The position numbers and the translations under genes are program-made. 57,388 bases of DNA from Rhodospirillales bacterium (GTDB lineage Bacteria; Pseudomonadota; Alphaproteobacteria; Acetobacterales; Acetobacteraceae), in contig JAGWSV010000030.1 in the NCBI GenBank assembly GCA_028869315.1, positions 1-57,388 on the forward strand. The letters run 5' to 3'. Positions 12,826 to 42,340 of this stretch are shown here, piece after piece. The notes beneath the pieces were generated by a model. The model saw nothing but the letters and a program-made list of their open reading frames with translations. It was not told where the DNA came from and ran no database searches. Numbering within the stretch: the stretch's first letter is position 1; every line of letters starts with the position of its first letter.

Positions 12826-12870
12826 CCTGTCCAGGAAACGCGAGGGCGTTCCATGGACAGGACACTAGGT
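12826..12870. repeat. Dispersed intergenic repeat, copy A, with imperfect 16-bp hairpin
   Basis: CCTGTCCAGGAAACGC-GAGG-GCGTTCCATGGACAGG (14/16 paired); shares GAAACGCGAGGGC(G/A)TTCCA with 14860-14931. Confidence 0.5.
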
Positions 12871-14028
12871 CCCGCGGCCGAGTTGCCGTTCGGCCAGCCG
12901 GGCGAACAGCGCGGCGCCATACGGGATCGTCTCGTCATTGAAATCGTACTTGGCGTTGTGCAGCGCCGCGCTGTCGCCGTTGCCGACGTTCAGATAGGCC
13001 CCTGGGACCTTCTCCATCATGAAGCTGAAGTCTTCCGAACCCATGCCGGGCGGCTTGGCACGATCCACCGCGTCCTCGCCGACGAGGTCGGCAGCGGCGT
13101 CGGCAAACGCCTGCCCGGCCGCTGCGTCGTTGATCAGCGGGGCGAAGATCACCCGGAAATCCGTGCTGGCGCTGGCGCCGAAGGCGCCGGCCACGTTGGC
13201 GGCGATGCGGGTGATCCCCTGTTCCAGCATCTCCAGCGTCTCCCGCTGCATCGCCCGCGCGGTGCCGGCAAGGGTCGCGCCGCCGGGGATGACGTTATAG
13301 GCCGCGCCGCCCTCGATCTTCGTTACGCTGAGCACGGCCGCCTTCCAAGGCGAGAGGTTGCGTGAAATCAGCGATTGCAGCGCGGTGCCGATATGGCAGG
13401 CGACCAGCACCGGGTCGATGCTCTCCTCCGGCCGCGCGCCGTGCGCGCCGCGCCCCGTCACCGCGATATCGAAGAACGCGCCGCCGGCCGAGGACGGGCC
13501 TGGGCTGATCGCGTAAGTGCCGACTTTCATGCCCGGGCGGTTGTGGATGCCGAACACCTGCTCGCACGGGAACCGTTCGAACAGCTTGTCTTCCAGCATG
13601 GCCAGCGCGCCGCCGGCGCCTTCCTCGCCCGGCTGGAAGATGAAGTTCACCGTGCCGTTGAACGCGCGGGTCTCGGCCAGATAGCGCGCCGCGCCAAGCA
13701 ACATGGTGGTGTGCCCGTCGTGACCGCAGGCGTGCATCAATCCTGCGTTTCCGCTGGCGTAGGGCAGGCCGGTGGTCTCGGCGATCGGCAGCGCGTCCAT
13801 GTCGGCCCGCAGCCCGATCGCGCCCGGTCCGTTGCCCGACCGCAGCACGCCGACCACGCCGGTGCCGCCGACGCCGCGATGCACCTCGATCCCCCATTCC
13901 TCCAGCTTGCGCGCAACCATCTCGGCTGTGCGGTGCTCGTTCATCCCGATCTCGGGATGGGCGTGGAGGTCGCGGCGGATGGCAGTCAGGTCTTCGTGTT
14001 GGCGGCGGATGGCGTCGAGCGGAGACAT
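12865..14028 (-). CDS. M20 family metallopeptidase / aminoacylase-hippurate hydrolase-like amidohydrolase
   Basis: IRRDLHAHPEIGMNEHRTAEMV, MHACGHDGHTTMLLGAARYLAE, PGEEGAGGALAMLED. Confidence 0.93.
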   Translation of the reverse strand: MSPLDAIRRQHEDLTAIRRDLHAHPEIGMNEHRTAEMVARKLEEWGIEVHRGVGGTGVVGVLRSGNGPGAIGLRADMDALPIAETTGLPYASGNAGLMHACGHDGHTTMLLGAARYLAETRAFNGTVNFIFQPGEEGAGGALAMLEDKLFERFPCEQVFGIHNRPGMKVGTYAISPGPSSAGGAFFDIAVTGRGAHGARPEESIDPVLVACHIGTALQSLISRNLSPWKAAVLSVTKIEGGAAYNVIPGGATLAGTARAMQRETLEMLEQGITRIAANVAGAFGASASTDFRVIFAPLINDAAAGQAFADAAADLVGEDAVDRAKPPGMGSEDFSFMMEKVPGAYLNVGNGDSAALHNAKYDFNDETIPYGAALFARLAERQLGRGT

Positions 14029-14144: not shown

Positions 14145-14158
14145 TTGATCTGTATCAA
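14145..14158. promoter_or_regulatory. FNR/FixK-type anaerobox TTGATCTGTATCAA
   Basis: Exact match to TTGAT-N4-ATCAA, centred about 61 bp upstream of ATG 14213. Confidence 0.75.
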
Positions 14159-14212
14159 TGTCTGCGTTCGCACCGGGCGGCAGCATCCCTGCCAGCAGCA
14201 AGGTCCAGCATC

Positions 14213-14539
14213 ATGGCCACGGCCCGCACAGCATCCGACCGCCGGATCCGCGCTCATGCGATGCGGATGTGGCGCGCCGACGGCGCCCCCGAGGGGCGGG
14301 AAGCCGAATATCTGGAACGCGCGCGGGAGCTTGAGGCCATCGCCGCAAACCCGCAGGCCGGGCTGCTGCCCAACCCGATGACGCAGCATGGCGGGGCGAT
14401 CCCCCCGATCCAACCGGTGGAGGAGGCCGAGCTTGAAGAGAACCTGGGCGAGTTCCCCGGCCGCCTGACCGACCAGGGCAACCGTCCCTCGGTGCCCATG
14501 ACACGCAAAAAAGCTCTCCGGTTCCTGCGCGAGACCTGA
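14213..14539 (+). CDS. DUF2934-like domain protein
   Basis: RIRAHAMRMWRADGAPEGREAEYLERARELE; upstream AAGG Shine-Dalgarno. Confidence 0.75.
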   Translation: MATARTASDRRIRAHAMRMWRADGAPEGREAEYLERARELEAIAANPQAGLLPNPMTQHGGAIPPIQPVEEAELEENLGEFPGRLTDQGNRPSVPMTRKKALRFLRET

Positions 14540-14637
14540 ACTCTCCGATCACGCGGCGGGAGGGCCACCGCCGGCCATCGTCGAGATGCCCGTGCGAAAG
14601 ACACGGAACACGACCGGCGAACCGAAAGGCTCACGTG

Positions 14638-14838
14638 ATGACACCATCGACGCGTCGTAACGTTCTGCTGCCGTGGCACGCCGGGCTCGTGGTTGTCGTG
14701 GCGGCCGATCTCACAGTCGCCCAACGGATGTTCCCGAAGGCCCGCCTGGCATCGGGTCTCGCCCGAGCGCTCGTGCTCGTCGTGATGCCCGTCGTCCATC
14801 TGGTGCTCATGTGCCTGACCCTCAGAAGCCCAGGCTGA
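14638..14838 (+). CDS. Small two-TM hypothetical protein
   Basis: MTPSTRRNVLLPWHAGLVVVVAADLTVAQRMFPKARLASGLARALVLVVMPVVHLVLMCLTLRSPG. Confidence 0.45.
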   Translation: MTPSTRRNVLLPWHAGLVVVVAADLTVAQRMFPKARLASGLARALVLVVMPVVHLVLMCLTLRSPG

Positions 14839-14859
14839 TGTACCGGCTCGCACATAGCG

Positions 14860-14931
14860 TTGTCATAGGTCGGGACACGAACTCTTCGTTTCCAGCGGGC
14901 TGCCGGCCCCCGAAACGCGAGGGCATTCCAG
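14860..14931 (+). repeat. Dispersed intergenic repeat, copy B
   Basis: TTGTCATAGGTCGGGACACGAACTCTTCGTTTCCAG...CGAAACGCGAGGGCATTCCAG aligns with 20589-20660. Confidence 0.6.
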
Positions 14932-15046
14932 GCGCGGGATACGAGCCTGGCTCTCCGTCCTGGCAAGCGAAACCGCGCCCGAGGCCGGGTCGGCCCCGCG
15001 GCTGACCACCGCGTGCGCCCGGCGACACCATGTCCGGAGCCTTTGC

Positions 15047-16063
15047 GTGAACCCTGTCGTCCTGGTCTGGCTCGAATTCGTAGCTTGCCTCGCTTTGGTC
15101 GGGCTTGCCGGGCCGCGGCTGTCGCGCAGCGGCGACGTCATCGCCGACAAGACCGGCCTGTCGGCGAGCTGGGTCGGGGTGATCCTGATGGCGACCGTCA
15201 CCTCGTTGCCGGAACTGACCACCGGGATCAGTGCCGTCACCATAGCCGGCACGCCCGACATCGCGGTGGGCGACCTGTTCGGCAGTTGCGTGTTCAATCT
15301 CGCGATCCTGATCGTGCTGGACTTCGTCCAGCGCGGCGAGAGCGTGTACCGCCGGGTCCGCCAGGGCCATATCCTGTCGGCCGGATTCGGCATCGTCCTG
15401 ATCGGCTTCGCCGGCCTCAGCCTGCTCTTGCACGGCCACGGCGCCTCCTTCGCGATCGGCCATGTCGGCGGCTACACGCCGGTCATCTTCGTCCTGTACG
15501 CGGTCGGCATGCGCGCGGTGTACGGCTATGAGCAGGATCACTGCGAGCAGGCGGTCGAGGACGCCGCGGCCCGTTATCCCGGGGTCACGCTGCGCGCCGC
15601 TCTCCTCGGCTACGCCGGCGCGGCGGTCGTCATCGTGATGGTCGGCACCGCGCTGCCGTTCGTCGCCGCCGCGCTCGCCGCCACGATGGGATGGCAGCGC
15701 ACGTTCGTCGGCACGCTTCTGGTTGCAACCGTCACGTCTCTGCCGGAGCTCGTGGTCAGCATCGCGGCGGTGCGGATTGGCGCCGCCGACATGGCGATCG
15801 CCAACCTGCTCGGCAGCAACCTGTTCAACATGCTCGTGCTCGGCATCGACGATCTGCTCTACGCGCGGGGGCCGTTGCTCTACCGGGTGTCGCCGATGCA
15901 CGTCGTTTCGGCCGTATCGGCGACGATCATGTCGGGCATCGTGATCGTCGGCATCGTCTACCGGTCGGATCGCCGGGTCCTCCGCACCGTCGGCTGGATC
16001 AGCCTCGGCCTGTTCACGATGTACCTGTTCAACTCCTATGTGTTGTATCTGCATGGAACCTGA
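15047..16063 (+). CDS. CaCA-family sodium/calcium antiporter (YrbG-like)
   Basis: Duplicated alpha repeats: ATVTSLPELTTGISAV...GDLFGSCVFNLAIL and VATVTSLPELVVSIAAVRIG...NLLGSNLFNMLVL. Confidence 0.93.
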   Translation: MNPVVLVWLEFVACLALVGLAGPRLSRSGDVIADKTGLSASWVGVILMATVTSLPELTTGISAVTIAGTPDIAVGDLFGSCVFNLAILIVLDFVQRGESVYRRVRQGHILSAGFGIVLIGFAGLSLLLHGHGASFAIGHVGGYTPVIFVLYAVGMRAVYGYEQDHCEQAVEDAAARYPGVTLRAALLGYAGAAVVIVMVGTALPFVAAALAATMGWQRTFVGTLLVATVTSLPELVVSIAAVRIGAADMAIANLLGSNLFNMLVLGIDDLLYARGPLLYRVSPMHVVSAVSATIMSGIVIVGIVYRSDRRVLRTVGWISLGLFTMYLFNSYVLYLHGT

Positions 16064-18719
16064 GCCGACCGCCCCGCCCCCGTGGCACAGTCTGGACGGC
16101 GCGGCCGTCACGGCACGGCTCGGGTCGGACGCCGACCACGGCCTGTCCGACACGACGGCCGAAAGCCGCTTGGCGCAGTACGGGCCGAACGCGATCCGCG
16201 AAGGCGCGCGGCGCGGACCGTTGCGAATGCTGGCTGCGCAGTTCGCCGATTTCATGATCCTGCTGCTGCTCGCCGCCGCCGTGGTGTCCGGCGCGGTCGG
16301 CGACGCCAAGGACACGGCGGTCATCCTTTGCATCGTCCTGCTGAACGCGGCGGTCGGGTTCGTGCAGGAATACCGAGCGGAGCGCGCCATGGCCGCGCTC
16401 CAGCGCATGGGGGCGCCAGGCGCGGTGGTGGTGCGCGAAGGCCGACGCCAGGCCGTCCCAGCCGAGACGCTGGTGCCGGGCGACCTGGTGCTGCTGGAAG
16501 CGGGCAACCTCGTGCCGGCCGATCTCCGCCTGCTCGAAGCCGTAGATCTCAAGCTGGGCGAGGCCGCGCTCACCGGGGAATCTCTTCCGATTTCCAAACG
16601 AACCGGCCCGCGCGCAGATGCCGACCTGCCCATCGGCGACCGCGACAACATGGCGTTCAAGGGAACCATCGTACAGTACGGCCGCGGGCGCGGCATTGTG
16701 GTGACGACCGGCATGGCGACCGAATTGGGGCGGATCGCCGGCATGCTGGAAGGCACGAGCGACACGCGCACGCCGCTGCAACGGCGGCTCACCGTCTTCG
16801 GCCGCCAGATCGCGTCCGCGGCCGTTGGCGTCTGCGGGCTGATCTTCGCCGTCGGCCTGCTGCGCGGCGAGCCGCCGCTGCAGATGCTGCTGACCGCGCT
16901 CAGCCTCGCCGTGGCAGCAATTCCCGAGGCGTTGCCCGCGGTGGTGACCGTGCTGCTGGCGCTGGGCGCGGCCCGGATGGCGCGCGCCCGGGCGCTGATT
17001 CGACGGCTGCCGGCGGTCGAGACCCTGGGCTCGGTGACCGTGATCTGCTCCGACAAGACCGGCACGCTCACCCGCAACGAAATGCGCGCGGTGGAAGCGT
17101 TCGTCGCCGGCGCACGCGGCCCGCTCGCCGGGCTGGACTCGGCGCGCACGCCCGCTGGCGACTTGTTTCGGGCGCTTGCACTCTGCAACGACGTGACCCG
17201 CGCCGGCGACGGGAAGCTGCTCGGCGACCCGACGGAGGTGGCCTTGTGGCTGGCCGCCGAGGAGGCCGGGCTGGCCTCCTCGGCGGGCCTCCTTGGCGGG
17301 CGGCTGTTCGAACTGCCGTTCGACTCCGAGCGCAAGCGCATGACCACCGCGCACCGCGAAGGCGAAGGGATCGTCGCCTATACCAAGGGCGCACCGGAGA
17401 CGGTGCTGGCGCGCTGCACCACGATGGCGACCGCGACCGGTACCGTCCCGTTGCCGCACAGCACGACGATGGCGGCCGCCGAGGACATGGCGCAGGAGGG
17501 GCTGCGGGTTCTCGCGGTCGCGTCCCGGCGCTGGGACAGGGTCCCGGCAGACGGCTCAGCCGAGGTGGTCGAACACGGGCTCACCCTGCTCGGCATGGTC
17601 GGGTTGCTCGATCCGCCGCGCGACGAAGCGAAGGAAGCGGTGGCCACGTGCCGCGCGGCCGGCATCACGCCGGTGATGATTACCGGCGACCATCCGGCGA
17701 CCGCACGCGCCATCGCCCGCCGGCTTGGGATCCTCGACGACGCCGGCACCGTGCTGACCGGGCGCGAACTGGCAGCGCTGCCAGACGAGATCCTGCGCGC
17801 CCGCGCCGGCGAGATCCGCGTCTATGCCAGGGTCGATCCGGCCCAGAAGATCCGCATCGTCGCGGCCTTGCAGGCTGAAGGCGAGATCGTCGCCATGACC
17901 GGCGACGGGGTGAATGACGCGCCGGCGCTCGCGCGCGCCGATATCGGTGTCGCGATGGGCAAGGCCGGCACCGACGTCGCCCGCGAGTCCGCCAGCCTTG
18001 TGCTGCTAGATGACAATTTCGCGACGATCGTGACCGCGGTGGGCGAGGGGCGGCGGATCTACGACAACATCCGCAAGTTCATCCGCTTTGTCGTCGCCTG
18101 CAATTCGGCGGAGATCTGGACAATCTTCCTGGCCCCGTTCCTCGGCCTGCCGGTACCGCTGCTGCCGATCCAGATCCTGTGGATCAACCTGGTGACCGAC
18201 GGCCTGCCCGGCCTCGCCCTGGCCGCGGAGCCGGCGGAGCGCGACGTGATGCGCCGCCCGCCCCGCCCTCCTCAGGAGAGCCTGCTGGGCGGCGGGATGG
18301 CTTCGCAGATGCTCTGGACGGGCCTGCTGATGGCGGCGATCACGTTGCTGACGCAAGCGTTCGCCGCGCGCGGCGGCAACGGCCACTGGCAGACCATGGT
18401 CTTTACCGTCCTGACGCTGGCGCAGATGTGGCAGGTACTGGCCGTCCGGTCCGAGCACGACTCCCTGTTCCGCCAAGGGGTGATGTCCAACCGGCCGCTG
18501 CTGGGCGCGGTGACGCTGACCTTCGCCTTGCAACTGGCGGTGATCTACGCGCCGCCGCTGCGCCCGATCTTCCGCACCGCCCCGTTGAGCGCGGGGGAGC
18601 TGGCCGGGTGCGTCGCCGTCTCCTCCGTCGCGTTCGTCGCGGTGGAGCTCGACAAGTGGCGGCGGCGCACCCGACGACGCAAGGATCTTGCACGACCGCA
18701 AGGTACGCGGCTGGCGTAA
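16053..18719 (+). CDS. P2-type (SERCA-like) cation-transporting P-type ATPase
   Basis: ICSDKTGTLTRNEM phosphorylation motif, TGES, MTGDGVNDAPALARADIGVAMG; start ATG overlaps stop of upstream gene. Confidence 0.95.
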   Translation: MEPEPTAPPPWHSLDGAAVTARLGSDADHGLSDTTAESRLAQYGPNAIREGARRGPLRMLAAQFADFMILLLLAAAVVSGAVGDAKDTAVILCIVLLNAAVGFVQEYRAERAMAALQRMGAPGAVVVREGRRQAVPAETLVPGDLVLLEAGNLVPADLRLLEAVDLKLGEAALTGESLPISKRTGPRADADLPIGDRDNMAFKGTIVQYGRGRGIVVTTGMATELGRIAGMLEGTSDTRTPLQRRLTVFGRQIASAAVGVCGLIFAVGLLRGEPPLQMLLTALSLAVAAIPEALPAVVTVLLALGAARMARARALIRRLPAVETLGSVTVICSDKTGTLTRNEMRAVEAFVAGARGPLAGLDSARTPAGDLFRALALCNDVTRAGDGKLLGDPTEVALWLAAEEAGLASSAGLLGGRLFELPFDSERKRMTTAHREGEGIVAYTKGAPETVLARCTTMATATGTVPLPHSTTMAAAEDMAQEGLRVLAVASRRWDRVPADGSAEVVEHGLTLLGMVGLLDPPRDEAKEAVATCRAAGITPVMITGDHPATARAIARRLGILDDAGTVLTGRELAALPDEILRARAGEIRVYARVDPAQKIRIVAALQAEGEIVAMTGDGVNDAPALARADIGVAMGKAGTDVARESASLVLLDDNFATIVTAVGEGRRIYDNIRKFIRFVVACNSAEIWTIFLAPFLGLPVPLLPIQILWINLVTDGLPGLALAAEPAERDVMRRPPRPPQESLLGGGMASQMLWTGLLMAAITLLTQAFAARGGNGHWQTMVFTVLTLAQMWQVLAVRSEHDSLFRQGVMSNRPLLGAVTLTFALQLAVIYAPPLRPIFRTAPLSAGELAGCVAVSSVAFVAVELDKWRRRTRRRKDLARPQGTRLA

Positions 18720-18782
18720 TCCCGGCGCGGGCGGTGTCGTCCTGCGGCGGGCTTGTCCACCCGAGACCAGGAAGGAGCGATC

Positions 18783-19157
18783 ATGATCGAAGTGCTGACG
18801 GGCTTTCCCCCGCGCGTCGTCGCCGTTGCCTGCAGGGATCAGGTGACGCGGGCCGACTACGAGACGGTGCTGGTTCCGGCCGTGGAGGCCGCACTGAAGG
18901 ACCATCCGAAGATCCGCATCTACTACCGGGTCGAGCCCGGCTTCTCCGGCTTCGAACCGGGTGCGATGTGGGAGGATTTCAAGGTCGGCATGCAGCATAT
19001 CCTGTGCTGGGACCGCATCGCCGTCGTCACCGACGTCGACTGGATGCGCTGGGCGGTCCGCGGCTTCCGCTTCGTGGTGCCCGCGGACCTGCGGGTGTTC
19101 CCGCTCGCGGAAGCGGCGGCGGCGGAGGCGTGGATCACCAGCGACCTCACGGCGTGA
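18783..19157 (+). CDS. SpoIIAA-like / STAS-like protein
   Basis: MIEVLTGFPPRVVAVACRDQVTRADYETVLVPAVEAALKDHPKIRIYYRVEPGFSGFEPGAMWEDFKVG; AAGGAG Shine-Dalgarno. Confidence 0.85.
   Translation: MIEVLTGFPPRVVAVACRDQVTRADYETVLVPAVEAALKDHPKIRIYYRVEPGFSGFEPGAMWEDFKVGMQHILCWDRIAVVTDVDWMRWAVRGFRFVVPADLRVFPLAEAAAAEAWITSDLTA

Positions 19158-38740: not shown

Positions 38741-42340
<3,600 letters not shown>

Follow-up and report, generated by a model that had tools for sequence, protein, structure and literature searches.

A window of 57,388 nucleotides from a Rhodospirillales bacterium of the family Acetobacteraceae carries a palindrome of the FNR/FixK type in front of a group of cation transport genes. 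The question raised by this locus is whether the site brings cation transport into the response to low oxygen, and if so which genes it reaches, which cation is moved and which regulator binds it. A pattern scan confirms the predicted exact match to TTGAT-N4-ATCAA, TTGATCTGTATCAA at positions 14145-14158 of the forward strand, and identifies it as the only zero-mismatch box in the window. Two more FNR-like boxes with one mismatch each are located at 41388-41401 and 241-254.

Genes of the locus

As originally predicted, five genes follow the box on the forward strand (14213-19157) and no opposing gene lies among them. The first of these encodes a protein of 108 residues (14213-14539), which is referred to as DUF2934-like as its weak match to PF11154 (19.4 bits) is below the gathering cut-off of 22 bits. 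A possible Shine-Dalgarno sequence, AAGG (14200-14203, forward strand), is situated ahead of its ATG. The second is a small membrane-like ORF with no family (14635-14838), comprising 67 residues from a GTG start or 66 from the ATG at 14638; a similar ORF of 66 residues occurs in the sister locus (L064:7771-7971), where it overlaps the stop codon of DUF2934. The third gene codes for a CaCA antiporter predicted to be of the Na+/Ca2+ exchanger type (15047-16063; PF01699, 4.9e-33) and the fourth for a P2A-type cation ATPase, a predicted Ca2+ or Ca2+/Mn2+ pump on the basis of profiles and ion-site motifs (16053-18719). The predicted start-stop overlap of these two genes is indeed present and spans 11 nt.

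The last gene (18783-19157) encodes a SpoIIAA-like (STAS-like) protein, for which the match to PF11964 (3.1e-26; 92.6 bits) is well above the 25-bit gathering cut-off. Its solved relatives by sequence are only 2ook and 2q3l, both uncharacterised. This gene had been proposed as a partner of the transporters, a proposal that is not borne out: among 150 genomes examined within the family only 2 encode it, and it is not found in the sister genome. A conserved or stable partnership is hence rejected, and the gene is probably an accessory and recent arrival.

The locus is flanked by a divergent M20 amidohydrolase gene upstream (12865-14028, reverse strand; profile match) and by a convergent P450 gene downstream. 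The centre of the box is 123 nt from the M20 start. The M20 gene is probably not the target, since this neighbour changes in related loci while the spacing between the box and DUF2934 stays.

Substrate of the exchanger and the pump

The exchanger of the window has two alpha repeats with the ion-site residues of NCX proteins and matches NCX_Mj (MJ0091) in a profile comparison (6e-14), while its score is below the cut-off of TIGR00367 (106.7 vs 179.65). It shares with NCX_Mj the alpha-repeat motifs and the residues E54, E213, T50/S51, T209/S210, S77, S236 and N81, but the overall identity is low and D240 of NCX_Mj is replaced by Asn, which is the usual residue at this position in NCX proteins (PMC5133943).

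The ATPase has the P-type core motifs DKTGT and TGD along with PEALP in M4, N..E in M5 and NLVTD in M6, these residues being tentatively mapped to SERCA positions with the LMCA1 alignment as a guide. Its best matches among the solved structures, near full-length, are the Ca2+-ATPases LMCA1 and SPCA1; LMCA1 differs in having Ala and Arg where the window ATPase has Glu (M5) and Gln (M8). As it scores below the curated Ca2+-ATPase cut-offs (TIGR01522, 720 vs 798; TIGR01116, 630 vs 703), it is classed as P2A-like without a certain assignment of the ion.

Thirteen alphaproteobacterial loci with this exchanger, the window included, have been considered in the current analysis. An ATPase adjoins the exchanger in 10 of the 13, and both gene orders occur. 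In a tree from which three ORFs on the wrong strand and a single long branch were left out, the partner ATPases form two well-separated and well-supported clades, one found in exchanger-first units of the window type, into which the solo ATPase L103 also falls, and the other in ATPase-first units (G155, G441 and G956). This distribution suggests more than one origin for the pairing of exchanger and ATPase. PE(A/G/S)LP in M4, N..E in M5, NLVTD in M6 and a Gln in M8 are retained throughout the two partner clades; the Asp of M6 is lacking in some solo ATPases.

It is somewhat unlikely that the two transporters move another cation, such as Mn2+, Na+ or Mg2+, and serve in cation or pH stress generally. 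The highest score of the ATPase is with the PMR1-type Ca2+ model, though below the cut-off, SPCA1-type pumps also carry Mn2+, and sequence gives no secure reading of ion specificity. Against these points, the exchanger retains the ion residues of NCX_Mj and the ATPase the PEALP, M5 and M6 motifs, and the nearest solved relatives of the latter are Ca2+-ATPases. Ca2+ is thus the best-supported candidate substrate for both the exchanger and the pump.

Candidate genes for control by the box

The box has been compared in four related loci, namely the window, two copies in the genome G057 and one in G182, in all of which the ATG of DUF2934 and the box are conserved. Within the alignment 12 of the 14 box columns are invariant as against 20 of the 106 other upstream columns (Fisher P of about 1e-6). 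The conserved form is TTGATCTG-NN-TCAA, and the distance from the start of the box to the ATG is 65-70 nt in each locus; in the window the centre of the box is 61.5 nt from the ATG. The box is retained in orthologous loci, as the original prediction requires.

Two of these loci (G182:C240 and G057:C333) have the box and DUF2934 beside a P450-like gene and/or an M20 gene, without any transporter, which argues that the box is first of all the promoter element of DUF2934. In the window, the small ORF, the exchanger, the ATPase and the SpoIIAA-like gene are situated between DUF2934 and the P450 gene; the transporters give the impression of a block set behind the box and DUF2934 or, in the other loci, lost. 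Control of the transporters in the window would consequently rest on read-through from the DUF2934 promoter. The original prediction of a single five-gene unit thus stands in part: the link of the box to the exchanger and ATPase recurs, as described below, but the box and DUF2934 also occur on their own, and expression of the transporters from this promoter is a prediction.

The sister locus (L064, JABBNW010000007.1) has the order box, DUF2934, small ORF, AI-2E family transporter, ATPase relic, exchanger and ATPase. The relic, a truncated P2 ATPase (L064:9561-10004) just upstream of the exchanger and overlapping its start, indicates that ATPase copies have turned over here. Upstream of the sister box, a cluster recognised by eye (L064:3-6118) contains genes similar to NifJ-type 2-oxoacid:ferredoxin oxidoreductase and dihydroorotate dehydrogenase, which is consistent with an anaerobic island.

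The box could also control DUF2934 alone, perhaps with the small ORF, the inserted transporter block being served by a promoter of its own. The two transporter-free loci fit such an arrangement, as do the different gene inserted in the sister locus and the gap of 208 nt ahead of the CaCA gene. However, a sequence scan of this gap and of the other gap ahead of the block, of 95 nt, reveals no terminator-like or sigma-70-like sequence, no gene of the locus opposes transcription, and in the genomes G338, G733, G679 and G956 a box immediately precedes the exchanger or the unit to which it belongs. Separate control of the transporters is unlikely on these grounds, and co-transcription from DUF2934 through the transporters is the likely arrangement.

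The recurrence of the box has been assessed in the 13 exchanger loci. In the 300 nt ahead of each unit, a perfect box is present in 4 of 13 and one with no more than a single mismatch in 7 of 13, where sequences generated from these regions by a first-order Markov model lead to expectations of 0.003 and 0.09 respectively. The significance is strong but not exact, given the small number of loci, the relatedness of some of them (the window and G057 have a common ancestry) and the choice of the unit start by eye. The reversed control pattern does not occur in the same 13 regions. In G338 the box TTGATCCCGATCAA lies between the exchanger and a divergent CBS protein, in G733 TTGATTTCAATCAA precedes an exchanger-ATPase unit and in G956 TTGATCCAGATCAA an ATPase-exchanger unit, while two near-perfect boxes in G441 precede a unit comprising a universal stress protein, VIT, ATPase and exchanger. 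The remaining 6 of the 13 units are without a box of at most one mismatch in these 300 nt.

P2 ATPases as general FNR targets in the order are rejected: among 30 related ATPase loci, a few of which are exchanger units with the box further upstream, only one has a box within 400 nt. The association therefore goes with the exchanger unit rather than with the ATPase family. Orthologs of the exchanger in Nitrospirota and Deltaproteobacteria have no adjacent ATPase by eye and no box of at most one mismatch just upstream, so the FNR link is not demonstrated for the entire exchanger family.

Further features of exchanger loci have been noted. In Nitrospirota and Deltaproteobacteria (L066-L072) the gene is found, by eye, beside UPF0182, mannosyl-3-phosphoglycerate phosphatase-like and glycerate kinase-like genes, and not beside a P2 ATPase. 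Two exchanger and ATPase units (L086:2545-15435 and L101:6989-16327) form part of larger clusters with several FNR boxes, which also carry universal stress protein, VIT, RNA-type metallo-beta-lactamase, PpsA-like and erythromycin-esterase-like genes. A perfect box, TTGATATAGATCAA, lies downstream of the exchanger in Taklimakanibacter (L065:11978-11991).

The candidate regulator and its regulon

A profile search of the genome has identified 15 matches to the Crp-type HTH family. One of them (L020) combines the cysteine motif C-x2-C-x7-C (CLSCDARADSVC) with another cysteine in its sensory domain, and its recognition helix, TVETVSR, has the FnrN pattern E-x-x-S-R. A near-perfect box, TTGATCTGGGTCAA, is located about 90 nt upstream of its first in-frame start, the exact start codon being uncertain. 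The original prediction required an FNR/FixK regulator in the genome, and an FnrN-type protein with a cysteine cluster is indeed encoded there.

A second protein (L019) is FixK-like, has no Cys motif and carries the helix METVCR. Its presence leaves room for use of the site by a cluster-less FixK-like or an NO-responsive regulator in place of FnrN, with a signal that would not be oxygen directly, and the type of box is common to such regulators, FNR, FixK and DNR having been treated together (PMC2908626). The ETVSR helix of the FnrN-type protein and the near-perfect box ahead of its own gene speak against this assignment, which is quite unlikely.

The whole assembly of 3.95 Mb contains 21 perfect boxes but no copy of the control pattern in reverse, and perfect boxes are therefore not background in this genome. 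Genes beside the other boxes encode OmpW, HemN, the cbb3 oxidase subunit CcoN, a DsbD-like protein, a di-haem cytochrome c peroxidase, a CBS protein, a Gpr1/YaaH transporter and an M48 peptidase, and one box adjoins a pyridine nucleotide-disulphide oxidoreductase gene that is itself beside an ArsR regulator. Of these, the cbb3 oxidase, HemN, OmpW and the peroxidase are established targets of FNR, and the set overlaps the core FNR regulon published for Alphaproteobacteria (PMC2908626). A single site on its own might arise by chance, but the 21 boxes against none in the control, the footprint and the recurrence across families make a functionless palindrome extremely improbable. As judged from these sequence comparisons, TTGATCTGTATCAA is a real FNR-type site within a real regulon.

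Two other perfect boxes have been observed. One has its centre 40.5 nt before the predicted start of a starch/glycogen synthase (L008:6001-6014) and suggests control of glycogen by oxygen. The other (L002:6001-6014) is upstream of a gene of the 2OG-Fe(II) oxygenase family, an O2-dependent type of enzyme in a low-oxygen regulon.

The original prediction placed the transcription start on the supposition of a class II site. When the -10 element is taken to begin 36 nt from the start of the box, as expected for such a site, its mean match to TATAAT over the 21 box-gene pairs of the genome exceeds that at every other offset (1.67, vs a mean of 0.98; P of 4.5e-4 at that offset and 0.03 allowing any offset). 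This regulon-wide signal favours the class II geometry, while the candidate -10 element of the window itself, CAGCAT (14181-14186, forward strand), is weak. It matches the consensus at 3 of 6 positions, keeps the A at -11 and the T at -7, and would place the transcription start near 14193.

A predicted low-oxygen calcium export unit

The explanation we favour, and consider reasonably probable, is that an FnrN class II site drives the DUF2934 promoter and that read-through brings Ca2+ export into the low-oxygen response. It builds on the box, its footprint, the regulator gene, the regulon, the recurrence of boxes before exchanger and pump units and the ion-site residues; activation by FnrN, read-through, the Ca2+ substrate and the physiological reason are the predicted steps. 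The FnrN-type oxygen sensor would turn on the DUF2934 promoter as oxygen falls. Behind this promoter a putative Ca2+ export cassette comprises an NCX-type exchanger, using a Na+ or H+ gradient, and an ATP-driven P2A pump encoded by the overlapping gene, and read-through would make the extrusion of Ca2+, or of a comparable divalent cation, part of the survival response. Transport driven by ion gradients would lose strength as the proton-motive force drops, a loss for which ATP-backed export may compensate.

A hypoxic Ca2+ export unit is probable at this locus. More tentative, and rather short of an even chance, is the proposal of an undescribed alphaproteobacterial unit in which one NCX-type subfamily was joined with different P2A pumps on two or more occasions and repeatedly came under FNR boxes, giving the extrusion of Ca2+ an ATP-driven arm once oxygen runs out. 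Bacterial Ca2+ homeostasis is poorly understood, and the link to oxygen that could be documented here is confined to individual pumps, under Anr in Pseudomonas and under DosR in Mycobacterium. Should FNR-boxed pairs of exchanger and pump recur in Alphaproteobacteria, Ca2+ export would belong to the low-oxygen response in general; the pair constitutes a defined, testable unit.

Comparison with known systems

The open-access literature yielded no description of an FNR-boxed pairing with an NCX-type exchanger, which is weak evidence of absence, and nothing specific on DUF2934 or on FixK with calcium transport. The core alphaproteobacterial FNR/FnrL regulon shares with the present genome the type of box and includes hemN, cbb3 oxidase, OmpW and universal stress protein genes, but its cation transporters were tied by the authors to copper for the cbb3 oxidase, and the word calcium is absent from the text (PMC2908626).

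The original prediction held that no system of such composition had been described. This needs to be qualified with respect to the pump, as P2 ATPases are known in hypoxia regulons, those nearest to the present case being PA1429 and CtpF. PA1429 of Pseudomonas aeruginosa is a cation-transporting P-type ATPase among the Anr-regulated low-oxygen genes, listed next to hemN and ccoN2 (PMC8087004, PMC8575079); it resembles the window ATPase by description and differs in being listed as a single ATPase, with no NCX-type exchanger partner mentioned in the parts of these sources consulted. CtpF of Mycobacterium tuberculosis is likewise a P2A Ca2+ pump, induced by hypoxia within the dormancy regulon, but its regulator is DosR and not FNR, and no exchanger partner is described in the portion of the source consulted (PMC9180918). 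What appears to be new relative to both of these systems is the composition of an exchanger together with a pump.
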